Below, one piece after another: positions 4,544 through 43,343 of a DNA stretch of 64,000 nucleotides. Numbering within the stretch: position 1 is the stretch's first letter; the number at the start of each line of letters is the position of its first letter. This DNA comes from Nitrospira sp. (GTDB lineage Bacteria > Nitrospirota > Nitrospiria > Nitrospirales > Nitrospiraceae): assembly GCA_030123625.1 (NCBI GenBank), contig CP126121.1, positions 1,528,179 through 1,592,178 on the forward strand. Reading direction: 5' to 3'. The position numbers and the translations under genes are program-made. A model generated the notes under the pieces. That model did no database searches. It saw nothing but the letters and a program-made list of their open reading frames with translations, and was not told where the DNA came from.

Positions 4544-4725
4544 GTCAATGGTCACCGGTCATTGTCATAGGAATGGTTAATGGCCAATGGGTAATGGTTG
4601 ATGAAAAAGTCATGATCGTTGACCACCGCCGTCGCACTATATCAACCATTCCCATTTTTCTCAGTGACCGATGACTATTGACCATTGACCGACAACCATT
4701 GACCAATGACTACTTGACCAATGAC
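4544..4725. repeat. inverted pair of heptamer arrays between nuoL and nuoM
   Basis: Left arm 4544-4603: GTCAATG, GTCACCG, GTCATTG, TCATAGG, then AATGGTT, AATGGCC, AATGGGT, AATGGTT. Right arm 4665-4725: TGACCGA, TGACTAT, TGACCAT, TGACCGA, CAACCAT, TGACCAA, TGACTAC. The right arm is the reverse-complement family of the left, so the about 180-bp spacer could fold into one long imperfect hairpin. The last unit supplies the ATG of nuoM (4721). Confidence 0.88.
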
Positions 4726-9258: not shown

Positions 9259-10116
9259 ATGAATGTCCTCCGCTTCCTTCTTGATGTTTTGAAGTCCTTT
9301 ATACGTCAAGGCTGCGCCAGCCTCGCTGCCTCCTTGGCTTTTTTCTCTCTCCTCTCGCTCTTCCCTCTGGCGTTTCTCCTCCTCTATGGAGTGAGTTTCT
9401 TCGTCAGTCAGGATGTCCTCGGCGAGCAGTTCATGCTGAGCTTCCTCAAAGAATTTTTGCCCTCATTGGGCGAGCGTCTGGCTGAAGAGCTCCATCGGAT
9501 CAGTGCGTTGGAGAGTGTGCGATGGCTCGTCTTTTTGTCGTTTTTCTGGTTCGGGGGGCTGGTCTTTTATGAACTGGACTACACCCTCAATGTGGTCTTT
9601 GAGAGCATGCATCAGCGCCATCCGCTGATTTCAACGGCGATCTCCATCGCGCTGGTCGGATCGACCGGACTTCTGCTGCTTCTGGCGTATGTCGGCACGC
9701 AAACCATCACCTTTTTAACCGACTACGCACCCAGGTTCTGGGGGCTCGATCTTGTCGCCCTTGCTGCGCATGATTTTCACCTCACCTACACTCTGCCCTT
9801 TACCCTCGCATTCCTGGCGGTCAGCCTGTTGTACCGTCTGGTTCCTCGCCGCCGTCCACGATGGCGGGCCGCCATGGCTGGAGCACTTACGTTCAGCCTA
9901 CTCTGGGTCTCGGCCAAGTTGTTGTTCGTCAGCTATAGCGACTATGCCACCGTCTACGCTCGACTGTATGGATCATTGCTGGAAGTCGTCCTCTTGCTGC
10001 TGTGGGTGTATTATTCCGCCGGGCTCTTCCTCTTCGGCGGCATCATCGCCCACAAGCTGCAACAGCTCGCCCCTGCGTCGCCTACAGCGCCGGCAGATGG
10101 AACCTATGGCCAATAG
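9259..10116 (+). CDS. YihY/BrkB family inner-membrane protein
   Basis: A 285-residue polytopic membrane protein of the YihY/BrkB (formerly RNase BN) family. The family signature is seen in QGCASLAASLAFFSLLSLFPLAFLLLYG near the N-terminus and in LYGSLLEVVLLLLWVYYSAGLFLFGGIIAH near residue 250. Six transmembrane segments are predicted. The function of the family is not settled; the older tRNA-processing annotation is wrong for these membrane proteins. The stop TAG lies at the edge of a heptamer array. Downstream, the convergent site-2 protease gene is about 150 bp away. Confidence 0.88.
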   Translation: MNVLRFLLDVLKSFIRQGCASLAASLAFFSLLSLFPLAFLLLYGVSFFVSQDVLGEQFMLSFLKEFLPSLGERLAEELHRISALESVRWLVFLSFFWFGGLVFYELDYTLNVVFESMHQRHPLISTAISIALVGSTGLLLLLAYVGTQTITFLTDYAPRFWGLDLVALAAHDFHLTYTLPFTLAFLAVSLLYRLVPRRRPRWRAAMAGALTFSLLWVSAKLLFVSYSDYATVYARLYGSLLEVVLLLLWVYYSAGLFLFGGIIAHKLQQLAPASPTAPADGTYGQ

Positions 10117-10219
10117 TCAATGGTCATCGGTCACTGCTGAGAAAGGGGTATGGTTAATTCATGAGGGGGATGGAGGCAAGGGTCAGTGAGCGTTCATCAG
10201 CCATCAACCATTACCTATT
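10116..10219. repeat. inverted heptamer arrays between yihY and the site-2 protease gene
   Basis: Left arm 10116-10136: GTCAATG, GTCATCG, GTCACTG. Right arm about 10193-10219: TTCATCA, GCCATCA, ACCATTA. The arms are short and degenerate. The pair lies between two convergent genes, where it could also act as a bidirectional transcript-end hairpin. Confidence 0.65.
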
Positions 10220-12203: not shown

Positions 12204-12683
12204 ATGACTGACTCGGTGATCAGAAACATGGATCCGGACGATCGTGAGTCCGTCGTCCAGCTGCTCAGTGAGTCCGATCCCTGGAAGAGGCTCGGTTACT
12301 CGAAGGAGGATTGGAACCGCATCTTTTGTCCGACGCCACAAGGGAGAGACTGTTACGTTGCGCTTCTCGATGGGCAAGTGGCGGGCGTCGCCATCGTGAA
12401 GCAGAAGTTTCTCCTGGGCGACTATTTGGAGCTCCTGGGGGTGGCGGTATGGGCTCGTCACAAGGGAATCGGCGGTCAGCTGTTGCGGCACATCGAGGAG
12501 TTGGTCTTTAAAAGAACCAAGAATTTCTTTGCCTGCGTGTCGGATTTCAACGAACCGGCGAGGGTCTTCTACCAGAAACACGGCTATCAGGAAATCGGCC
12601 CCATGCCCAATTTTTTGATCCCCGGCAGCGCGGAGCTGTTGTTGCGGAAGACAGCGGGGCCAGCCAGACAAAAAGGTCAATAG
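12204..12683 (+). CDS. GNAT family N-acetyltransferase
   Basis: A 159-residue acetyltransferase of the RimI-like GNAT class. The acetyl-CoA-binding motif A is seen in LELLGVAVWARHKGIGGQLL (R/QxxGxG/A as RHKGIG), followed by the motif-B region with NEPARVFYQKHGYQEIG. The ATG at 12204 is preferred over the in-frame GTG at 12189. It follows the deacetylase by only 4 bp, so the two are probably co-transcribed. The acceptor substrate cannot be deduced. A heptamer array overlaps the last codons. Confidence 0.85.
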   Translation: MTDSVIRNMDPDDRESVVQLLSESDPWKRLGYSKEDWNRIFCPTPQGRDCYVALLDGQVAGVAIVKQKFLLGDYLELLGVAVWARHKGIGGQLLRHIEELVFKRTKNFFACVSDFNEPARVFYQKHGYQEIGPMPNFLIPGSAELLLRKTAGPARQKGQ

Positions 12684-12745
12684 TCATTGGTCACTGGTAT
12701 GATGAGAGTATATTCGCTGTTCCAATGACCACTGACCAATGACTG
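12676..12745. repeat. inverted pair of heptamer arrays between GNAT and VOC genes
   Basis: Left arm 12676-12696: GTCAATA, GTCATTG, GTCACTG. Right arm 12722-12745: CCAATGA, CCACTGA, CCAATGA, CTG. The arms are reverse complements in consensus and separated by about 25 bp (AT-rich, GATGAGAGTATATTCG). The left arm supplies the GNAT stop codon, and the right arm supplies the ATG of the next gene. Confidence 0.85.
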
Positions 12746-13146: not shown

Positions 13147-13151
13147 CAACA

Positions 13152-13221
13152 GTCATGAGTCATAAGTCATTGGTCATTAGAAGACCAACCAATGACTATT
13201 GACCATTGACCAATGACTCAG
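13152..13221. repeat. inverted pair of heptamer arrays upstream of dapF
   Basis: Left arm 13152-13179: GTCATGA, GTCATAA, GTCATTG, GTCATTA. Right arm 13189-13216: CCAATGA, CTATTGA, CCATTGA, CCAATGA. The spacer is only 9 bp (GAAGACCAA), so this is the tightest predicted hairpin of the set. Confidence 0.88.
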
Positions 13222-14146: not shown

Positions 14147-14176
14147 GAGTCATTGGTCAGCAGTCATTGGTCATTC
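14147..14176. repeat. heptamer array, left flank of bIVP gene 1
   Basis: Four 7-bp units in the GTCATTG sense (GTCATTG, GTCAGCA, GTCATTG, GTCATTC) end six bases before the bIVP start. The inverse array lies beyond the gene at 14619-14649, so the bIVP gene is bracketed. Confidence 0.85.
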
Positions 14177-14181
14177 GAAAA

Positions 14182-14568
14182 ATGGCTATCGCCAAGACAT
14201 TTCAGGACCTTGAGGTATGGAAGATCGGCAGATCACTCCGCAGGAAACTCTATGAGATTACCAAAACCTTACCGACCCACGAGCGCTACAATCTTGCCGG
14301 TCAAATCAGAGCGGCGGCCATCTCTCTCACATCGAACATCGCAGAGGGCTTCGGACGGTTTCACTACAAAGAAAATGTGCAGTTCTGTCGGATTGCTCGC
14401 GGTTCTGCCTGCGAAGCTCGGGACCATCTTCTGACGTGTCTTGATGAGCGTTACATTTCATCAGGTCAGTACCAAGAACTGGACCAAGAGTTGACGACTT
14501 TCTTACGGACACTTAACGCGTATATCAAATCCATAGGTTCCTCAAAGACATTTCCCGACGCGGAATAG
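14182..14568 (+). CDS. four-helix-bundle protein, 23S rRNA intervening-sequence (IVP/S23) family
   Basis: A 128-residue protein of the bIVP/S23 family (TIGR02436 type). Signatures are FQDLEVWKIGRSL at the N-terminus and QIRAAAISLTSNIAEGFGR in the second helix, followed by a conserved pattern of FxRIARGSACEARxHLL. The family was first seen in 23S rRNA intervening sequences of Leptospira, but most members stand alone; the molecular role is unknown. This copy lies between dapF and uvrC and is bracketed by inverted heptamer arrays. No Shine-Dalgarno sequence is evident before the ATG. A second, divergent copy at 37490 has the same architecture. Confidence 0.88.
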   Translation: MAIAKTFQDLEVWKIGRSLRRKLYEITKTLPTHERYNLAGQIRAAAISLTSNIAEGFGRFHYKENVQFCRIARGSACEARDHLLTCLDERYISSGQYQELDQELTTFLRTLNAYIKSIGSSKTFPDAE

Positions 14569-14594
14569 CTCCATTGTGCGTCGAGCTGTACAAT

Positions 14595-14610
14595 AGGACA
14601 ATGTTGTCCT
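14595..14610. promoter_or_regulatory. 16-bp palindrome upstream of uvrC, candidate SOS-type operator
   Basis: AGGACAA-TG-TTGTCCT is a perfect inverted repeat with 7-bp arms. It begins directly after a TACAAT hexamer (14589-14594) that would serve as a -10, so a bound repressor would cover the transcription start. A damage-inducible gene (uvrC) follows. LexA-type control is an inference; no lexA gene is in the window. Confidence 0.45.
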
Positions 14611-14618
14611 TTTCTCCT

Positions 14619-14649
14619 CCAATGACTAATGACCAGTGACTAATGACTG
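14619..14649. repeat. heptamer array, right flank of bIVP gene 1
   Basis: CCAATGA, CTAATGA, CCAGTGA, CTAATGA, CTG: four units that are the reverse-complement family of the array at 14147. The final ATG of the array is the uvrC start codon. Confidence 0.85.
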
Positions 14650-25942: not shown

Positions 25943-28486
25943 TTAAGTCCAAGCCGGAGTGAGGCCGCCATGAGCATCCCGCCAATACGGTGTCCATGCA
26001 AGAGTCACAAGTTTGACGGCAATGTTGGATTTGGTGGGTTTAATGGAGAGGGTTTCGAGTCTTTCATTCAGCGGGTCGGTCGCCGCGGCGAGTGCATCGC
26101 CCTCGGATGTGAATTGCGCTTCAAGATCGGCCAGTTGTTTTTGCAGTGCCGCCACATTTTCTTCCGCGACCCCGACGTCTTTGGACTCTTTCATAACCCG
26201 GCCGGCGCTTCGGATCGCGGTCGTGGCCCGGCCGATGTTCGAGGCGCTGATCGTTTTCCGTCCCAGAAACGCCCCGAGGATGGAAGCACCCACGGAAATT
26301 GCCGCCTGGACTTGGCTGGAGCGGGATTCAGCCTGCTGTTTTTCTCTGGCTAATTCCGCCCGTCTAATGCGCTCTTGAAGCGTCGCGATCTTTGGCGCAT
26401 ATTTCCGGCGAAGTATCTCGGCGCCCTTATCGCGTTGTTCCCGCCCCGTTTGCTGTAACCGCACTCGAAAATCCCGCTCGGATTCTCCGGGTTTTGATAT
26501 TTCGTTGGTGCCCGGGCTTCTGAACAGCTCCATCTTCTGTGTCCGGAAGAGCCAGCCACCGAACTCCTTGTTCCAATCGCCATAGCTCTTCGCCTTGCCG
26601 GCGCTTGCCGGCAGCGCGAGAAATTGCGCGTCCCTTTCAGGATCCCGCTCCAGATCCTCCACCACCAAGTCCGTCGCAGAGGCCTTATCAAAGTCGACGA
26701 TCATGGGACCTTCGGCCATGGGTGCCAGTACGGTCACGTCTTGAGTGGCATCGATCCCGCTCTTTAAGTCGCAGAAACGGACCTGCGATGCGCCCAATAG
26801 CATCGGGACATACACCAATTCACTTCCCTCCGACTTGCCGCCTCGCAACGGTAAAAAGTGCTGCGGCACATCGGGAGGCAGCATGGGACGGGATTTGAGT
26901 GTTGAGTGCCGGGAATAGCTGGAGGTTGGAGGTTGGAGGTTGGCGGTGGTCGCCTCTAACCTCGTGCCTCTAACCTCGGGCTGTTTTCGTGGGTCCATCA
27001 GCTGTTTGATCTGCGTCCTCGTGAGTGGGCCGCGCAGGTAGGAGAGACACCACCGCGTCTCAAAGGCGACCGGTTCGTCCTCATGCACGTTGTTCATAAG
27101 AAAGATGCGATTGCCGAGGCCCGCCAGTGTTTGCTCCATACGGCCACGGTCGAACTTCTTCCCGGCGCTGGTCGACGCTCCTTCCAATCCTTCAAGCACC
27201 CGCGCCTTGTCGCGTTCCGTCTGCAGACGCCCAATGAACCAGGTGCCGGTGTTGGCCAAGCCCTTGTAGTCGAGATCCACGGGGTTTTGCGTGGCCAACA
27301 CGACACCGAGCCCGAACGCGCGCGCCTGTTTGAGCAAGGTCATCAGCGGAAGCTTCGAAGGAGGGTTGGCGACCGGCGGAAAGTAGCCGAAAATTTCGTC
27401 CATGTAGAGAATCGCCCGCAGGCTGGTGGTACCAGACTGCGCTCTCATCCACCCGACCGTTTGACTGAGTACAAGCGTCACGAAAAACATACGCTCGGCA
27501 TCGTTCAGGTGCGCAATGGAAAAGATCGCCAGACGCGGCTTGCCCGTGGGGGTGTAGAGCAACGACTGGATGTCCAGCGCCTCGCCTTCCAACCAGGCCT
27601 GGAAGCCCGGCGCTGCGAGCAAATTGTTCAATTTCATGGCGAGCGCGAACCGGTCTTTCGAGGGGAAGAAGGACTCTACATCCATCACACCGATCTTTGA
27701 GACCGGCGGTGATTGAATGGCCTGGATCAATGCCGCGAGATCAAGATCCTGTCCTTTTTCCCAGGCGTGATCGAGAATGGTGGAGAGGAGAATGTGCTCG
27801 CGGCTTTGGATCGGATCGGCCTCGATGCCGAGCAACCCGAGCAGACTGGTGACCGTCGTGCTGATACGCTCGCGCAACAACTCCGCATCTTCACGCACAT
27901 CGGCAGCCGGTGCGGCGAACGATTTGAGGATGGACACCGGTAACCCGGCGTTACTGCCCGGCGTATAAATCGCAACGTCCGCGGCATCGCGGAGCCGTTG
28001 AATGCGCGCGCCATCCTGTTGCCAGTCGGCCAACCCCTTCGTCCACAATTCAGCTTGAGCCTGGGCATAGTCGGCTGGTGACAAGCCTTTCTTGCGCGCA
28101 TCGTCCTCATTGATCCAGGGCTGAAAGTCTTCTCCCTTGAGAGACGGGAACGTCAGCATCAAATTGCCCAGGTCCCCCTTCGGATCGATGATGATCGCGG
28201 GAATGTTGTCGATCGCGGCTTCTTCCAGGAGCGCAAGGCACAGACCGGTCTTGCCGCTGCCGGTCATGCCGACGCAGACGGCGTGAGTCACCAGATCTTT
28301 CGAGTCGTAGAGCAGCCATCCAGGCTTGGCTTGTTTGACGGCGAGATCGTATGGTCGGCCTAAGTAGAACACTCCGAGCTTTTCAAAATCTTCCGCAGCC
28401 GACGGAGCAGGCGAGAGTGACGGGCCGGATTTCTTCGCAGCCCTCTCGGTCTTCACATTCCCATCGGTCTTTTTGACCTTCGGCAT
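25943..28486 (-). CDS. HerA-like (DUF853/DUF87) ATPase with C-terminal coiled coil
   Basis: An 847-residue protein with a HerA/FtsK-like P-loop ATPase. Walker A is GMTGSGKT (residues 73-80), followed by IIIDPKGDLGNLM, and the Walker B region is LRAILYMDEIFGYFPP with GVVLATQNPVDLDYKGL downstream. The C-terminal third is charged with two coiled-coil runs around a small GASILGAFLGRKT segment. It may be a DNA-translocating or secretion-associated ATPase; no nurA nuclease is adjacent. Residues about 499-530 are encoded by inverted heptamer arrays inserted in frame, a low-complexity linker (GTRLEATTANLQPPTSS). Confidence 0.85.
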   Translation of the reverse strand: MPKVKKTDGNVKTERAAKKSGPSLSPAPSAAEDFEKLGVFYLGRPYDLAVKQAKPGWLLYDSKDLVTHAVCVGMTGSGKTGLCLALLEEAAIDNIPAIIIDPKGDLGNLMLTFPSLKGEDFQPWINEDDARKKGLSPADYAQAQAELWTKGLADWQQDGARIQRLRDAADVAIYTPGSNAGLPVSILKSFAAPAADVREDAELLRERISTTVTSLLGLLGIEADPIQSREHILLSTILDHAWEKGQDLDLAALIQAIQSPPVSKIGVMDVESFFPSKDRFALAMKLNNLLAAPGFQAWLEGEALDIQSLLYTPTGKPRLAIFSIAHLNDAERMFFVTLVLSQTVGWMRAQSGTTSLRAILYMDEIFGYFPPVANPPSKLPLMTLLKQARAFGLGVVLATQNPVDLDYKGLANTGTWFIGRLQTERDKARVLEGLEGASTSAGKKFDRGRMEQTLAGLGNRIFLMNNVHEDEPVAFETRWCLSYLRGPLTRTQIKQLMDPRKQPEVRGTRLEATTANLQPPTSSYSRHSTLKSRPMLPPDVPQHFLPLRGGKSEGSELVYVPMLLGASQVRFCDLKSGIDATQDVTVLAPMAEGPMIVDFDKASATDLVVEDLERDPERDAQFLALPASAGKAKSYGDWNKEFGGWLFRTQKMELFRSPGTNEISKPGESERDFRVRLQQTGREQRDKGAEILRRKYAPKIATLQERIRRAELAREKQQAESRSSQVQAAISVGASILGAFLGRKTISASNIGRATTAIRSAGRVMKESKDVGVAEENVAALQKQLADLEAQFTSEGDALAAATDPLNERLETLSIKPTKSNIAVKLVTLAWTPYWRDAHGGLTPAWT
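26897..26977. repeat. heptamer arrays inside the HerA-like coding sequence
   Basis: GGAGGTT three times plus GGCGGTG at 26921-26948, then the inverse family CTCTAAC, CTCGTGC, CTCTAAC, CTC at 26954-26977. A further short array (GAGTGTT, GAGTGCC) lies at 26897-26910. The reading frame of the host gene is preserved. The heptamer sequences differ from those of the nuo region, but period and inverted pairing are the same. Confidence 0.85.
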
Positions 28487-36676: not shown

Positions 36677-37453
36677 ATGGTGAAAACCGACCATCCTCCA
36701 TTGACCCAAGACTCTCACGCTCCGGCCAAGGTCGTCTCGACCTGGTCCGGCCAGGCTCGCGAAGATGCCGTACAACGGATGTTTACCGCCATTGCGGGCG
36801 TCTACGATCTGAACAATACGCTGTTGAGCTTCGGTCTGCATTACCATTGGAAGAAGATTACCGCTTCCTTCATTACTCCCGTCGGCCGGGGGACGGCGCT
36901 CGATGTCGGATCCGGCACAGCCGACCTGGCCCTCCTTGTCGAGTCCCGAATGGGACCCAAGGGGCGCGTGATCGCATCAGACCTGAACCATGCGATGCTG
37001 GCCGAGGGCCTCAAGAAGATCGGAGGTAAAGGGCTCACCGACAAGATCACCTGCCTCCAGGCAAGCGCGGAACATCTGGGTTTTGGGGATAACACCTTCG
37101 ATGCAGTCACCACCGGTTTCTGCATGCGGAATGTGGGTGATTTACCACAAGCAGTGCGGGAGATCCGCCGCGTGATGAAGCCCGGCGGTCGCTTCGTGTG
37201 CCTGGAGTTTTCACGGCCGGTATTCGGTTGGCTACGGAAGAGCTACGATTGGTATTCGTTCAAACTGCTCCCCTGGATCGGCACCATGGTGGCCCGCGAC
37301 CACACCGGCGTGTACGAGTATCTTCCAGCGTCGATACGGACATTCCCCGATCAAGAACGGTTGTGTCAGATCCTCCGAGAAGCCGGGTTCCGTCAAGTGT
37401 CGTACAAGAACCTCAGCGGCGGCATTGTCGCCGTTCACGTCGCGACTAAATAA
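36677..37453 (+). CDS. ubiE: demethylmenaquinone/2-polyprenyl-benzoquinol methyltransferase
   Basis: A SAM-dependent C-methyltransferase of 258 residues that completes menaquinone (or ubiquinone) synthesis. Motifs are TAIAGVYDLNNTLLSFGLHYHWKK (UbiE signature 1), ALDVGSGTADLAL (SAM motif I), NHAMLAEGLKK, and FDAVTTGFCMRNVGDLPQAVREIRRVMKPGG (signature 2). It serves the quinone pool used by complex I. In an organism of this group the product would be menaquinone. A heptamer array begins directly at its stop codon. Confidence 0.93.
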   Translation: MVKTDHPPLTQDSHAPAKVVSTWSGQAREDAVQRMFTAIAGVYDLNNTLLSFGLHYHWKKITASFITPVGRGTALDVGSGTADLALLVESRMGPKGRVIASDLNHAMLAEGLKKIGGKGLTDKITCLQASAEHLGFGDNTFDAVTTGFCMRNVGDLPQAVREIRRVMKPGGRFVCLEFSRPVFGWLRKSYDWYSFKLLPWIGTMVARDHTGVYEYLPASIRTFPDQERLCQILREAGFRQVSYKNLSGGIVAVHVATK

Positions 37454-37481
37454 GTGTTGAGTCCTGAGTGCTAAGTGCTGA
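37454..37481. repeat. heptamer array, left flank of bIVP gene 2
   Basis: GTGTTGA, GTCCTGA, GTGCTAA, GTGCTGA: four units in perfect 7-bp register directly after the ubiE stop, 8 bp before the bIVP start. The inverse array is at 37884-37911. Confidence 0.88.
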
Positions 37482-37489
37482 GTAGAAGA

Positions 37490-37915
37490 ATGAAAGTTGA
37501 ACGCTTTGAAGATCTTGTCGCCTGGCAGAAAGCGCGAGCGCTTACTCAAGCAGTTTATGAGGTGACTCGAGTGCAGGCCTTTAGAAGGGATATCGGCTTA
37601 TCCAGTCAGATGCGACGTGCGGCCATATCGATCATGGCGAACATTGCAGAGGGTTTCGAACGTAATCGCGCGACAGAGTTTCATCAGTTCTTGTCGGTCG
37701 CGAAGGGCTCCTGCGCAGAGGTGCGCTCTCACCTGTATGCTGCTTATGACGCCGGTTATCTCGGCAAAAGTCGTTTCTCCGAAGTGTTAACACAGGCTGA
37801 AGAAGTGGGCCGAATAATCGGTGGGCTGAGGGGTTCAGTCGCTGTCCAGAGAAAGCCCTCTCTATCAGCCACCGTATCATTAACTCAGCATTCAGCACCC
37901 AGCACTCAGCACTGA
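37490..37915 (+). CDS. four-helix-bundle protein, IVP/S23 family, copy 2
   Basis: A 141-residue bIVP protein. Signatures are [41 protein letters not shown] and [21 protein letters not shown]. It is clearly a paralogue of the protein at 14182 but diverged. The C-terminal tail ([12 protein letters not shown]) is translated from the right-hand heptamer array, and its stop TGA is also in the repeat. The next gene starts one base inside the stop (TGATG), so it is translationally coupled. Function is unknown; no rRNA gene is nearby. Confidence 0.88.
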
Positions 37916-37917
37916 TG
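37884..37917. repeat. heptamer array, right flank of bIVP gene 2
   Basis: CTCAGCA, TTCAGCA, CCCAGCA, CTCAGCA, CTGATGA: the reverse-complement family of the 37454 array. It encodes the bIVP C-terminus and stop and the start codon of the radical SAM gene. Confidence 0.88.
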
Positions 37918-39534
37918 AATTCCATCCTCTACATCTTCCTCCCCTGCAAAAAGGTCTATCCCATCGGGATCACCTACTTGGCAGACTTTATCCATCGGCG
38001 AAAGCCGGAGGTTCGTCAGCGCATTCTTGATCTGTCTCTGTTTCCTGTCGCACAGCGAAGCCATGCCATCCGCGATGCAGCCACGGAGTTTAAGCCGGAG
38101 CTGGTCTGCTTTTCTTGGCGCGATATTCAGATCTTTTCGCCCCATGAAGGCGACACCTCGTTGGAGCACGCATTTAATTTTTACTTCGCCAGTAACCCGC
38201 TCAAGCGCATCGCCGCGTCGGTCGAGGGCGTCAAGCAGCTCTACCGCTACTACAACCACATCTATACGATCCTGTCGTACCCTGCGCTGATCCGCAAAGA
38301 GTTTCCCAAAGCCCAGATCATGATCGGAGGCGGGGCGTTTACGGCCTTCGCCGATCAATTGATCGAAAAGCTTCCGGAAGGAACCATCGGCATTCTCGGT
38401 GAAGGGGAAGACGCCATACTGAAAGTCATTGAAGGTCGATCCATCGAGGATGAACGGTACATTGTCAAAGAAGGGAACCGGGTTCGGAAAGGCCGACAGG
38501 GTTCGCCGGCGCTGCTCGACGCGCTGACCGTCGATTTGCCCTACCTCACATCGATCTTTCCTCAGTACGGTGAATACGTCGGTGAATCGATCGGCGTGCA
38601 GTCGAAACGAGGCTGCCCCTACGACTGCGCCTTTTGCCTCTATCCGTATATTGAGGGCAAACGAGTCCGCTATCGGCCGCCCGACATGGTCGTCAAGGAT
38701 ATCGCTCAGCACTACCATCAGTGGGGCGCCCGTCGATTCTGGTTTACCGACGCTCAATTCATCACCGGGAAAGAAGCCTATCCTCAGTGCACGGAGATCC
38801 TCGAGCGGATCGTTGCCGAGAAACTCGATATCGAGTGGTCCGGCTACATTAGAACCTCGTTGATTACCCCGGAACTCGCGAAACTGATGGTCCGATCAGG
38901 CGTGGGCGATCTGGAGGTGGCCATTACGTCCGGCTCGCAAGAAGTTCTGAATAATCTCCATATGGGATTCAAGCTGGAACGGTTGTATGACGGTTGTCGT
39001 TATCTGGCGGAAGCCGGTTTCAAGGGCAAGGTGATCCTGAACTACTCGCTGAACAGTCCCAAAGAAACGGAAGAGAGCCTCCTGCAGAGCGTCGAGTCTT
39101 ACAAAACGGTGGCCTCAATAATCGGAGCAGAGCGTGTCTTCCCCTTGATGTTCTTCCTCGGCATCCAGCCAAACACCGATTTGGAACAGCGCCTGTTGGA
39201 GGAGGGATATCTGTCGGCCGGCTACAATCCCTTGATGTTGACCCCGACCAGTATCAAAAAGTTGCTCTATAATCCTGCCCCACTCAACAAGATCATCGCC
39301 AAGGCTTGTCTCCGCGCGTGGGAACGAAAGCAAGGGAGCCGTGATCCTCGTCGATGGACCGGATCTCTGTCCCAAACTTCGGAATCATCTACCTATGCGG
39401 ACCAAAATCTCAGCCGGGGCATCGAAGGCAATTCGGGGCGGGACGCGCTCCTTTCACTCGAAGAAATCCTTCGTTCGCGCCGGCCGGTTCCATCCTCATC
39501 ACAAACCCCTGAACCAAGAACTTCAGCCGGATAA
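37915..39534 (+). CDS. B12-binding-type radical SAM protein
   Basis: A 539-residue enzyme. An N-terminal cobalamin-binding-like Rossmann domain (about 1-190) precedes the radical SAM core with CxxxCxxC in KRGCPYDCAFCLYPYIEGKR. The pattern fits B12-dependent radical SAM enzymes (methyltransferases, cyclases such as BchE-type), though the DxHxxG motif of the B12 domain is not evident, so cobalamin use is uncertain. The C-terminal about 80 residues are low-complexity and polar (SQTSESSTYADQN). The start codon lies in the repeat and overlaps the bIVP stop. Substrate unknown. Confidence 0.82.
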   Translation: MNSILYIFLPCKKVYPIGITYLADFIHRRKPEVRQRILDLSLFPVAQRSHAIRDAATEFKPELVCFSWRDIQIFSPHEGDTSLEHAFNFYFASNPLKRIAASVEGVKQLYRYYNHIYTILSYPALIRKEFPKAQIMIGGGAFTAFADQLIEKLPEGTIGILGEGEDAILKVIEGRSIEDERYIVKEGNRVRKGRQGSPALLDALTVDLPYLTSIFPQYGEYVGESIGVQSKRGCPYDCAFCLYPYIEGKRVRYRPPDMVVKDIAQHYHQWGARRFWFTDAQFITGKEAYPQCTEILERIVAEKLDIEWSGYIRTSLITPELAKLMVRSGVGDLEVAITSGSQEVLNNLHMGFKLERLYDGCRYLAEAGFKGKVILNYSLNSPKETEESLLQSVESYKTVASIIGAERVFPLMFFLGIQPNTDLEQRLLEEGYLSAGYNPLMLTPTSIKKLLYNPAPLNKIIAKACLRAWERKQGSRDPRRWTGSLSQTSESSTYADQNLSRGIEGNSGRDALLSLEEILRSRRPVPSSSQTPEPRTSAG

Positions 39535-39725: not shown

Positions 39726-41792
39726 ATGTATAAGACTATCTATGTTCCAGTCGATAACTCCGACCATTCCAATACTGCGGTGGATGTCGGCGTCCAGATG
39801 GCCAAGACCTTCGGCTCGAAAATTGTGGGAAGCCACGTCTATGCAGCGAAAATGCACGACAAGCGCTTCAAGCAGATGGAAGCGGGCCTGCCGGAGGAAT
39901 ATCACGATGAAAAAGAGCTCGACCGGCAACGACAGATCCATGATTCGCTGATCACCCGCGGACTCCAGATCATCACCGATTCCTACCTCGACTACGTCGA
40001 CAAAAAATGCAACGAAGCGAATCTTCCGGTCGAACGGCGATCGCTCGAAGGACGAAATTGGAAGGTACTGGCCGAGGACATCAACACCAACGGGTATGAC
40101 CTCGTCATCATGGGAGCATTGGGAGTCGGTGCGGTCAAGGACAGCGTCATCGGGAGCAACACCGAGCGCGTGGTCCGTCGAGTCCGTAATTCCGACATGT
40201 TGATTATCAAGAACGTTCAGCCGATGACCGGCGGGAAGATCGTCGTTGCCGTCGACGGCAGCCCCTACTCGTTCGGCGGACTGATGACCGGCTTGGCGCT
40301 CGGCAAGGCGCTCAACATGCCGGTGGAGGCGATTTCGGCATTCGATCCCTATTTCCACTACGCGGCATTCCACAGCATTTCCGGGGTCCTGAACGAAGAG
40401 GCCGGCAAAGTGTTTCGTTTCAAGGAGCAGGAAAAGTTGCACGAAGAAATCATCGACAGCGGTTTGGCAAAGATCTATCAGTCCCATCTGGACATTTCCC
40501 GCGAAATCGCCCAGGCCGAACAGACTGACCTGAAGACCACTCTGCTGGACGGCAAAGCCTTCGAAAAAATCATTCAGTATGTCCGCAAAGACGTCCCGGC
40601 CCTGCTCATCGTCGGACGCATCGGGGTCCACAGCGACGACGACATGGACGTGGGCAGCAACACTGAAAACCTGCTCCGGAGCGCACCCTGCAATGTGCTG
40701 ATTTCCAATCGTAAATACGTGCCTCCGATCGATACCCAGGCCGAGTACACGATCGCCTGGACGGAAGAAGCCCTGCGGAGGATGGAAAAGATCCCGGTCT
40801 TTGCACGAGGCGTGGCGAAGACGGCCATTCATCGGTATGCCATCGAAAAAGGCCATACGATCATCAGCAACACCGTCGTGGATGCCGCGGTAGGACATAT
40901 TTTGCCTAAAGGAGCCATGGACGCCATGCGGGCGCTCGGCGGCAGCCTGGACGCGGCGGGTATCGACCGCGACAAGATGCAGGCCGACCAGGCTGTAACG
41001 AAGGATCTCATGGGTCCGACATTGAGCGGAATCATGACCCAGATCGTTGAGGAGAAACCGAAAGAGATCAATGCCTCCACGCAGGCCTACCTGGACCGTA
41101 TGGATCAAACCTATTTTGTCTGTGATGGGTGTGGCTACATCGGAAAAGGAGAGACTCCTGTCAAATGCCCGGTGTGCGGTGTGGACGGGACAAGGTTCAA
41201 GCAGGTCGACAAAAAGATTTTCGAAGTGGCTGCGACGTCGGAAGGTGAGTTAGAAACGGACGTTGCCTATGACGACGTGCCGATGCAATGGACCAAGGAT
41301 GCGAAAGAAGCGATCCGCGCCGTACCGGCCGGATTCCAGCGCAGGCGTGCGAAGGCCAGGATCGAAAAGAGCGCGCGTAAGTTAGGAATGACGACCATCA
41401 CACTCGAATATGCGGCGCCGATGATCAAGGAAGCCGCGGCCGAGGACTACACGCCCATTTTTTCCAATAAGGGTACCGGCACATCGCCAGTCGGAGAAAC
41501 CACGCTGGCAGCCACGAAGGGGAATAGTTCGAACGGCCATGTCGAATCCACCTCACCCTATACCTGGACGGCGGAAGCACAAGCCAGACTGGATCGGGCT
41601 CCAGAGGGCTTTATGCGGGATTGCACGAGAGCGCTCATTCTCAAGCACGCTGCAAAAATCGGAGCGACCGCGATCACGCTCGAAGTCGCAAATGAAGGCA
41701 TCGAACAGGCGAAGGGGTACATGGCGGAAGCTATGAAGACCGGCAATCTCAAGGACATGATCGCCGACCTGACCGGAAAAGGAAGTGCGTAA
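39726..41792 (+). CDS. multidomain fusion: USP-USP-PCP_red-zinc ribbon-PCP_red-PCP_red
   Basis: A 688-residue cytoplasmic protein. Two tandem universal-stress-protein domains (about 1-160 and 168-330; each with a GxxGSNTE nucleotide loop, VIGSNTERVVRR and DVGSNTENLLRS) are followed by a PCP_red-type domain (340-391, WTEEALRRMEKIPVFARG). Next comes a rubredoxin-like CxxC-x11-CxxC knuckle (Cys466/469/481/484) and two further PCP_red domains (519-566 and 612-660, both beginning WTxxA). PCP_red is the small C-terminal domain of light-independent protochlorophyllide reductase subunits. AAGGAGG precedes the ATG. The role is unknown; a redox-responsive scaffold is plausible. Confidence 0.85.
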   Translation: MYKTIYVPVDNSDHSNTAVDVGVQMAKTFGSKIVGSHVYAAKMHDKRFKQMEAGLPEEYHDEKELDRQRQIHDSLITRGLQIITDSYLDYVDKKCNEANLPVERRSLEGRNWKVLAEDINTNGYDLVIMGALGVGAVKDSVIGSNTERVVRRVRNSDMLIIKNVQPMTGGKIVVAVDGSPYSFGGLMTGLALGKALNMPVEAISAFDPYFHYAAFHSISGVLNEEAGKVFRFKEQEKLHEEIIDSGLAKIYQSHLDISREIAQAEQTDLKTTLLDGKAFEKIIQYVRKDVPALLIVGRIGVHSDDDMDVGSNTENLLRSAPCNVLISNRKYVPPIDTQAEYTIAWTEEALRRMEKIPVFARGVAKTAIHRYAIEKGHTIISNTVVDAAVGHILPKGAMDAMRALGGSLDAAGIDRDKMQADQAVTKDLMGPTLSGIMTQIVEEKPKEINASTQAYLDRMDQTYFVCDGCGYIGKGETPVKCPVCGVDGTRFKQVDKKIFEVAATSEGELETDVAYDDVPMQWTKDAKEAIRAVPAGFQRRRAKARIEKSARKLGMTTITLEYAAPMIKEAAAEDYTPIFSNKGTGTSPVGETTLAATKGNSSNGHVESTSPYTWTAEAQARLDRAPEGFMRDCTRALILKHAAKIGATAITLEVANEGIEQAKGYMAEAMKTGNLKDMIADLTGKGSA

Positions 41793-41967
41793 GTGCTGAG
41801 TCCTGAGTGCTGAGCGACAAAGAACGATACAAGCCAGTAAGCAGAAGTCGGATTTAGTATCCCACCTTAGCACCATAGCAACCATGGGTAAGTCACTTCC
41901 CGTTCTCAACTCTCCAATGTTGCCTGGGCCTGAGCGATTCTCAGCACTCAGCACTGATCACTCTGCA
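41793..41967. repeat. inverted heptamer arrays with no bIVP gene between
   Basis: Left arm 41793-41813: GTGCTGA, GTCCTGA, GTGCTGA. Right arm 41940-41967: CTCAGCA, CTCAGCA, CTGATCA, CTCTGCA. These are the same heptamers as around bIVP gene 2, but the about 125-bp interior has no bIVP sequence. It contains the ATG currently assigned to the next radical SAM gene. Confidence 0.82.
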
Positions 41968-43254
41968 TCAGTTCATGACGGCCGGACGGTTGACGACTTC
42001 AAACCCTACCTCGTTGCGCTGAACCTGACCAAGCGTTGCAACCTCAAATGTGATCACTGTTATCTCGATGCGACGACCAAAGCCGCCGGTGGAGACGATG
42101 AGCTCAGTACCGAAGAATGCTATCGGCTTATCGCGCAGATCGCGGAGGTGAACAAGGGCTGTCTCCTTGTCATCACGGGCGGCGAACCACTCGTGCGGCC
42201 AGACATCCTCGACATTGCTCGTTACGCGGTCCAACTCGGCTTTATGGTCGTCTTCGGGACAAACGGAATGCTGATCAACGACCAATTGGCCAAGACCCTT
42301 GTCGAGATCGGCGTAATGGGCGTGGGCATCAGTATCGATTCGTTGCAAGCCGCCAAGCACGACGCCTTTCGTGGCGTGCCGGGAGCCTGGGAAGCGGCGG
42401 TCGCCGGCATAGAAGCCAGCAAGCGGAATGGACTCCAATTTCAAGTGCATTTTAGCGCTCAGCCGATGAACTATAGGGAACTGCCCGAGGTCATCGACTG
42501 GGCGCACCGACTCGGCGCCCGCGTATTGAATGTGTTCTTTATGGTTTGTACGGGAAGAGGCGAAGAGCTGACTGATATTACCCCCGCTCAGTATGAAGAG
42601 GTGCTGGGATATCTCGTTGAATGTCAGGATAATTACAAAGGCATGCTGGTCAGGGCCCGCTGTGCTCCGCACTTCAAACGGTTGGCGTACGAGAAAGATC
42701 CTCACTCGCCGATCACCAAAGCTACCGGATACATGGGAGGCGGGTGCCTCGCGGGCACCAACTATGCCCGGGTGACGCCGAACGGCGAGTTGACTCCTTG
42801 CCCCTATATGCCGCTGTCGGCGGGAAACCTCCGCCGACAGAGCTTCGTCGACCTCTGGGAACGATCGGACGTCTTCAATTCATTCCGCTATCCTCAGCTC
42901 AAGGGGAAGTGTGGCGACTGTGAATATAGCGACATCTGCGGTGGTTGCCGCGCACGTCCCTATGTTGATCACGGCGACTGGCTGGATGAAGATCAGTGGT
43001 GTCTCTACACCCCGAAAGGCGGCGAGAAAATCAAAGTGGCGTTCAATGTCTTGGAAGAAACCGACGTCACATGGGACGAAGCCTCCGCCCTCAGATTGAG
43101 CCGTATCCCCTACTTCTTACGCGCCATGGTCAAAAAAGGTGTGGAAAAGCACGCCCGAGAAAACAATATGCGGCTCATCACCGTCGAATTGATGGAGGAG
43201 CTGCGCAAGAAGCGATTCGGCAATGAAGCACCGGTCTTTAAATTTGAACGTTAA
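41884..43254 (+). CDS. radical SAM/SPASM protein with C-terminal PCP_red domain
   Basis: A 456-residue enzyme related to AhbC/AhbD/NirJ-type SPASM proteins that modify haem precursors. The radical SAM cluster motif is Cys52/56/59 (TKRCNLKCDHCYLDA). SPASM cysteines appear in GGCLAGTNYARV...TPCPY and GKCGDCEYSDICGGCRARPY. Residues about 395-450 (WDEASALRLSRIPYFLRAMV) form a PCP_red domain like the three in the preceding protein. The first about 35 residues are partly encoded by a heptamer array, so the N-terminus may be repeat-derived or the start may be elsewhere. A haem-biosynthetic or peptide-modifying role is inferred. Confidence 0.85.
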   Translation: MGKSLPVLNSPMLPGPERFSALSTDHSASVHDGRTVDDFKPYLVALNLTKRCNLKCDHCYLDATTKAAGGDDELSTEECYRLIAQIAEVNKGCLLVITGGEPLVRPDILDIARYAVQLGFMVVFGTNGMLINDQLAKTLVEIGVMGVGISIDSLQAAKHDAFRGVPGAWEAAVAGIEASKRNGLQFQVHFSAQPMNYRELPEVIDWAHRLGARVLNVFFMVCTGRGEELTDITPAQYEEVLGYLVECQDNYKGMLVRARCAPHFKRLAYEKDPHSPITKATGYMGGGCLAGTNYARVTPNGELTPCPYMPLSAGNLRRQSFVDLWERSDVFNSFRYPQLKGKCGDCEYSDICGGCRARPYVDHGDWLDEDQWCLYTPKGGEKIKVAFNVLEETDVTWDEASALRLSRIPYFLRAMVKKGVEKHARENNMRLITVELMEELRKKRFGNEAPVFKFER

Positions 43255-43343
43255 CCGTTAATCGTTATTCGTTAACCGTATCAGCTGGAATGTTCGATTC
43301 TTCAGTCTCCTCGATTCACGTTTAACGGCTCACGATTAACGGG
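43249..43343. repeat. inverted heptamer arrays (CGTTAAC family)
   Basis: Left arm 43249-43276: CGTTAAC, CGTTAAT, CGTTATT, CGTTAAC. Right arm 43313-43340: GATTCAC, GTTTAAC, GGCTCAC, GATTAAC. The left array supplies the TAA stop of the radical SAM gene. The spacer is about 36 bp. Confidence 0.82.

Follow-up and report, generated by a model that had tools for sequence, protein, structure and literature searches.

The window, a 64,000-nt stretch of the Nitrospira sp. contig CP126121.1, carries at 37453–37915 a bIVP gene embraced by two short tandem arrays. This element fills the entire gap between the stop codon of a ubiE-like gene and the start codon of a radical-SAM-type gene, and is laid out as follows:

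36677–37453, + strand: upstream host gene, ubiE-like methyltransferase, directly adjoining the left array
37453–37483, + strand: left heptamer array, AGTGTTGAGTCCTGAGTGCTAAGTGCTGAGT, made of AGTGTTG, AGTCCTG, AGTGCTA, AGTGCTG and a final AGT, giving five AG cores at 7-nt spacing
37490–37915, + strand: bIVP gene (four-helix-bundle protein, S23p/PF05635), start ATG at 37490, stop TGA at 37913–37915
37885–37913, − strand: right array, an inverted copy of the left-array heptamer, TCAGCATTCAGCACCCAGCACTCAGCACT
37915–39534, + strand: downstream host gene, radical-SAM family (identity inferred from sequence), whose start overlaps the bIVP stop

The right array codes for the C-terminus of bIVP and leads into the next gene's start codon through a TGATG overlap. 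The two arrays aligned best in inverted orientation (score 19, compared to 3 for direct), in agreement with the preliminary description of a bIVP gene at 37490 with inverted arrays on both sides. In the predicted minimum-energy fold of the cassette RNA, left and right arrays pair end to end, closing the whole cassette with one stem (z −3.06).

The window holds a second bIVP cassette and, downstream of the radical-SAM-type gene, a pair of free arrays:

14149–14175, + strand: left array of the first bIVP cassette (GTCATTG family)
14182–14568, + strand: first bIVP gene of the window (genome locus L004)
14621–14648, − strand: right array of the first cassette, running into the uvrC start
41792–41814, + strand: left arm of a bIVP-less GTGCTGA element, AGTGCTGAGTCCTGAGTGCTGAG
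41940–41962, − strand: right arm of the same bIVP-less element

As had been proposed, the two cassettes share protein family and architecture and differ in their heptamers, which are of GTCATTG/AATGACC type in the first (14149–14648) and of GTGCTGA type in the second. The free arrays at 41792–41814 and 41940–41962 carry the GTGCTGA heptamer and face each other as an inverted pair, with an inverted score of 17. Across the window 19 period-7 segments scored at least 10, compared to none in shuffled sequence. Further bIVP-less inverted pairs of heptamer arrays lie at 2534–2626, 4572–4710, 10103–10219, 12676–12743, 13151–13217, 26920–26977 and 43237–43342, and belong to several heptamer families (TGGTTGA, TGACCAT, TGGAGGT and GTTAACC types).

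The protein encoded at 37490 matched PF05635 (E 1.7e-34, 118.7 bits against a cut-off of 33.8) and TIGR02436 (3.2e-33), and showed a weak match to bAvd (PF22296, 8.7e-05), under the family cut-off. Its Pfam and NCBIfam matches comprised only PF05635, bAvd and PRK12275 subfamilies, and no Y1 (HUH) domain was found with the profiles of these two collections. AlphaFold2 predicted a four-helix bundle with a mean pLDDT of 91, for which the closest solved folds in Foldseek were 2gsc (TM 0.94 by target), 2rld and then Avd, 4dwl (TM 0.84 by target, E 0.029), with chains of diversity-generating retroelement (DGR) ribonucleoproteins also among the matches. The solved bIVPs 2gsc and 2rld have five chains each, and the Xanthomonas bIVP has been described as a homopentameric toroid (PMC4990558). 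Across 41 aligned bIVPs, W12, Q40, S47, N51, E54, G55, R58, S74 and E77 were invariant. In the predicted bundle the polar residues among them fall on helices 2 and 3; Q40, S47, N51, E54, S74 and E77 might be structural or might form a candidate, so far unrecognised active site.

Prevalence of the bracket and anatomy of the arrays

The bracketed arrangement extends well beyond the window. In the closed 4.69-Mb genome, 5 of 6 bIVP genes were bracketed, each by its own heptamer (GTGAGGC, GTGCTGA, GTCATTG, GGACTGA and GAGGTTT/GAGGGTG types), while the sixth (L003, 3192716–3193030) was without recognisable arrays. bIVP was present in 42 of 59 congeneric genomes, mostly drafts, and period-7 arrays were detected in the left flank of 36 and the right flank of 41 of the 75 congeneric loci, where 0.2 or fewer were expected. 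Among the other periods only 14, a multiple of 7, was comparably enriched at these 75 loci; period 9 was seen at 7 loci per side. The bracket recurred across the phylum, with 8-nt arrays at some loci, and in a wider sample drawn from many bacterial phyla and one archaeon period-7 arrays flanked 62 of 80 loci on the left and 57 of 80 on the right, against about 1 expected, these loci having been picked from GTDB species genomes by likeness to a four-sequence query alignment and not at random. Since the loci are related, these counts are not counts of independent events. Detection was threshold-based and passes over arrays scoring below the threshold, and under the scoring used about a quarter to half of the sampled loci were without clear arrays. 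Nevertheless, most sampled relatives are bracketed, and the pattern is more general than the preliminary description stated.

The two arms of a cassette match each other. Left arrays scored on average 17.5 against the reverse complement of their own right array, compared to 9.4 against the right arrays of other cassettes (0 of 2000 permutations), and in 64 cases the own right arm ranked in the best nine of 74; therefore, both arms carry one heptamer and change together. In a common register most repeats read as AG followed by five nucleotides. Units were mostly 7 nt long, with 8 or 9 nt at a minority of loci; units of 8 nt and apparently 9 nt were seen in bIVP clades (L107, L108, L112, L114, L118, L191, L203, L205, L213; L032, L035, L039, L056, L065, L070, L072).

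When AG dinucleotides at exact 7-nt spacing were counted, the mode was five cores. In the worldwide set, right arrays had five cores in 25 cases, four in 3 and six in 5, and left arrays had five in 18, four in 10 and six in 11, while shuffled left flanks never rose above three. Arrays of 8-nt units likewise peaked at five; the quantity kept is the core number, five, and not the length. Because five AG cores agree with five chains, a correlation of numbers rather than a contact, we considered one repeat per subunit, and the analogy suggests that each subunit of the pentamer may take one AG-cored repeat. TRAP, an 11-mer beta-ring that binds (G/U)AG triplets in RNA, offers a parallel as a ring protein taking one short AG-containing repeat per subunit, as proposed here for bIVP, although its fold differs.

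Turnover at orthologous sites and dispersed hairpins

Comparison with relatives showed that orthologous sites vary in state, with full, hairpin-only, scar-like and empty sites all found. At the ubiE site, relatives whose neighbouring genes are 94–97% identical hold 9–16 nt in place of 461, and other relatives hold hairpins of 55–97 nt from different heptamer families at the same spot. One GTGCTGA hairpin site showed similar turnover, and two further bIVP sites were empty in most relatives. At the uvrC site of the related genome G052 (L268), the gene is internally deleted, with the start of the reading frame fused to its end and both arrays kept; this locus is an apparent direct intermediate between full element and hairpin. 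Some of the presence/absence cases are likely losses rather than gains: the elements L002 and L029 have diverged about as much as their flanks. No target-site duplication was visible at the compared full and empty sites, though scar-like single units stood at some empty sites. Single heptamer-like units were seen at the empty sites L224 (TTCAGTGCTGAGACATG), L077, L080 and L084 (ACTCAGCACTG) and L089 (GTGCTGAGTA), and could be either the scar of a loss or a heptamer-like target.

Elements were also replaced as units. At the site of L005, the loci L047 and L050 have flanks that are 85–87% identical and elements that are only 71% identical, with differing heptamers, whereas L047 and L005 have flanks of 68–76% identity and elements of 82%. 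From this mismatch between flanks and elements it follows that both arrays were swapped along with the gene. The ubiE, uvrC and L335 intergenic spots carry unrelated heptamer families in different species of the genus, which suggests hotspots or repeated replacement. The upstream neighbour was codirectional with bIVP at 148 of 174 loci, compared to 64% for adjacent large open reading frames in this genome; with the left array occupying the space that a promoter would need and upstream neighbours codirectional, expression by read-through from the preceding gene is probable.

About 20 GTGCTGA arrays are dispersed in the genome, most of them paired as bIVP-less hairpins, including the one at 41792–41962. 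A search with AGTGCTGAGTCCTGAGTGCTGAG gave at least 19 matches elsewhere in the closed genome and the GTGCTGA-array pattern gave 27 genome matches, compared to 0 for the reversed pattern; these genome-wide counts rest on searches and a 400-kb sample. The typical dispersed element consists of a left arm, a loop of ~29 nt and an inverted right arm, and stands at the end of a gene without bIVP. The variant unit GTCCTGA is common to the dispersed arrays and the family of the window cassette. Among the own-genome hairpins L316–L332 the arms were alike down to GTCCTGA and the loops no more alike than shuffled sequence; because the loops are unrelated while the arms are alike, simple copying of whole hairpins is disfavoured.

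The preliminary description had taken free arrays of the matching family to be non-autonomous relatives of the cassette. The abundance of these arrays, mostly hairpins, and their shared GTCCTGA unit speak for this view, and genomes with the bIVP of this clade held 5.7 GTGCTGA arrays on average, compared to 2.1 in those without (P 0.005). There are exceptions, however: the draft genomes G001 and G002 hold 11 and 13 such arrays without any bIVP, so that dependence of the free arrays on a resident bIVP is a tendency only. A 400-kb sample of two bIVP-free genomes contained 0 inverted pairs and the same amount of this genome four, a contrast that is not decisive because this genome itself gives only four.

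Proposed mechanism and competing readings

We consider it fairly probable that the cassette is a minimal mobile element whose ends are read by a pentamer, and that the intervening sequences (IVS) of 23S rRNA are its rRNA-resident form. This reading builds on features observed here, namely the architecture and how widely it occurs, the agreement of left and right arms, the mode of five cores, the dispersed hairpins, and both presence/absence variation and unit replacement at orthologous sites. The element, one member of a family found very widely, would comprise a single gene, bIVP, framed by terminal arrays in inverted orientation with a repeat unit of 7 nt, sometimes 8 or 9. It would lack a promoter of its own and would be transcribed by read-through from the preceding gene. 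The most likely role of the bIVP homopentamer is to bind the array of its own element, each subunit taking one AG-cored repeat, be it on the DNA at the two ends of the element or on those ends in single-stranded or hairpin form. The bound pentamer would mark the ends for mobilisation; we infer bIVP-driven movement, in which the mover could be a general host enzyme or bIVP itself. Copies without a gene would persist as hairpins of two facing arrays, possibly spread in trans, and the bIVP-carrying intervening sequences of 23S rRNA would be the same element at an rRNA site. A broader proposal, which we put forward tentatively, sets bIVP elements apart as a mobile DNA class of their own. Five tandem repeats at either inverted end would be read by a small homopentamer devoid of recognisable recombinase, nuclease or polymerase domains, gene-less derivatives would account for many orphan heptamer and octamer repeats of bacteria, and the 23S intervening sequences would form an rRNA branch.

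The best-placed alternative, though an unlikely one, is a regulatory system without mobility, in which bIVP, in the manner of TRAP, would bind the array that lies in the leader of its mRNA, and the free hairpins would serve regulation of other mRNAs. The left array indeed lies just ahead of the ribosome site, elements stand on the sense strand behind a host gene, hairpins are found at gene ends, and MacGregor proposed translational control for the TAACTGA repeats of Beggiatoaceae (PMC4679880). However, regulation would have no need for an inverted right array, and it sits poorly with the swapping of gene and both arrays as one unit, with the empty, hairpin and full states among close relatives, and with cassettes of about half a kilobase that carry many heptamer families across phyla.

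Distinctly less probable than regulation is a mobile element in which bIVP does not read the heptamer, with array and gene merely linked and the arrays drifting by slippage and conversion. Here the evidence is the covariation of protein and heptamer, which the preliminary description had proposed as a check on whether each bIVP recognises its own repeat. Pairs of cassettes always had a common heptamer at protein identities of at least 80%, in 54% of cases at 70–80%, in 16% at 60–70% and in 1–2% below that; covariation was thus present above 60–70% identity, but below 60% heptamer similarity was gone and matches were at chance level, a loss that favours mere linkage. For protein clusters below 70% identity, P was 0.057 in a Mantel test. 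In the residue-heptamer mutual information, domain positions 27, 59, 66 and 101 stood out, but the signals were weak and confounded by descent, and most shrank when only sequences below 60% identity were used. In addition, L137 and L152, whose proteins are 70% identical, differ by a switch of both arms together, as linkage would have it. Against it, unit length followed the protein clades (7 versus 8 nt clustered on the protein tree with 9 changes, compared to 15.4 after shuffling, 0 of 500), and an AG core that is nearly universal, present in a fixed number, suggests that the arrays are read. As array and gene travel as one unit, covariation alone is not proof of recognition, and the protein-heptamer match, judged from sequence comparison, fits recognition but also simple linkage.

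The likeness to REP sequences and RAYT proteins drawn in the preliminary description holds for the layout. As in the REP/REPIN and RAYT system, one protein gene is flanked by inverted short repeats and accompanied by many non-autonomous hairpins, and by analogy the bIVP cassettes are functionally like REP-RAYT without being a member of it. The strict analogy fails, since bIVP is a four-helix-bundle pentamer without the Y1 HUH nuclease domain, its ends are tandem heptamer arrays, and G001 and G002 have arrays without bIVP. We also considered a REP-like repeat moved in trans by Y1/RAYT transposases, with bIVP as a passenger, which is very improbable. This genome has 4 Y1_Tnp genes, two of them of ~300–350 aa, and the arms and spacing of the hairpins resemble REPINs, but in many phyla the bracket goes specifically with bIVP genes, and the closed relative G052 keeps seven bIVPs, with neither a Y1 transposase nor a reverse transcriptase found in it. 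G005 likewise has ten bIVPs and no Y1_Tnp. Dependence on Y1/RAYT was therefore rejected as a general requirement.

Slighter still is the chance of a retroelement in which bIVP acts like Avd of DGRs while a trans-acting reverse transcriptase makes copies from the hairpin RNA. Avd has a homologous pentameric four-helix-bundle fold and acts in a nucleic-acid complex (PMC10053308), and the resemblance of the predicted bIVP to 4dwl and DGR ribonucleoprotein chains, the weak bAvd match and the predicted closed stem of the cassette RNA would all suit such a role. DGRs, however, comprise a reverse transcriptase, a template and a variable repeat, all of which the cassettes lack. RVT_1 is absent from the closed genome with its 6 bIVPs, none was found in nine genomes with at least 5 bIVPs, and bIVP and RVT_1 were uncorrelated (rho 0.01, P 0.93). 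With RVT_1 absent where bIVPs abound, dependence on reverse transcriptase was rejected for this genus, barring a non-RVT_1 polymerase.

Equally remote are neutral heptamer microsatellites or G-quadruplex repeats flanking bIVP by chance: heptamer repeats are over-represented in many bacteria, and the four-unit preference of Xanthomonas and Nostoc arrays has been ascribed to G-quadruplexes (PMC4692102), but the arrays here are inverted and cassette-matched, the preferred number of AG cores, five, does not depend on unit length, and many are without G-tracts (AGTTCTC, AGCTGGT and AGCTTTC, for example), so that G-quadruplexes are not the general reason for the fixed count and, like slippage, were rejected as a general cause.

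Relation to intervening sequences and orphan repeats

The closest known relatives of the cassettes are the 23S rRNA intervening sequences with an S23p reading frame in Coxiella, Leptospira and Brucella, which have the same protein family in sense orientation and terminal inverted repeats that close a stem, as in the predicted fold of the cassette RNA. Excision from the RNA by RNase III is a further trait of these sequences, for which the cassette offers a predicted long stem. In Coxiella, three to four tandem heptamers (GACAGAT) stand just before the S23p start and vary in copy number between strains, and the terminal stem is 28 bp long; the authors call the intervening sequence selfish or formerly mobile and its origin unclear (PMC4990558). 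The bIVP cassettes differ in lying between protein genes, in several copies, with different heptamers and with dispersed bIVP-less hairpins. The window cassette, between ubiE and the radical-SAM gene, is not in a 23S rRNA gene (helix 9, 25 or 45), and a scan with five conserved 23S motifs over the bIVP loci collected gave isolated single-motif matches and no 23S gene around a bIVP. We therefore class the cassettes as putative IVS-like mobile elements outside rRNA; what is new is their setting, their number and their non-autonomous relatives. In the openly licensed literature, we found no paper linking bIVP genes to heptamer arrays outside rRNA.

The function of bIVP has been unexplained since its discovery inside 23S rRNA genes decades ago, and the bracket ties it to the over-represented heptamer repeats of bacteria, with five AG-cored repeats for five subunits as the rule we offer. 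Orphan repeats have been reported as GGGAATC in Xanthomonas and GGGGATT in Nostoc (PMC4692102), as TAACTGA in Beggiatoaceae (PMC4679880), and as paired hepta/octanucleotide sites and H4 elements in Geobacter (PMC2700814). Likened to the bIVP arrays by description only, these are intergenic tandem 7- or 8-mers of 4–5 units, dispersed and in many cases in inverted pairs. The papers do not name bIVP genes and read the repeats as regulatory or G-quadruplex elements (PMC4692102, PMC4679880, PMC2700814), though MacGregor suggested a repeat-binding protein as a possible mobile element (PMC4679880). If our preferred reading of a pentamer-read mobile element is true, an element of less than half a kilobase would move in many phyla without a known enzyme class of its own, a large set of orphan intergenic repeats would gain a maker, and the origin of rRNA intervening sequences would be explained. 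Lastly, the source species of XCC0516, the bIVP solved as 2gsc, is one in which GGGAATC heptamer arrays abound (PMC4692102).
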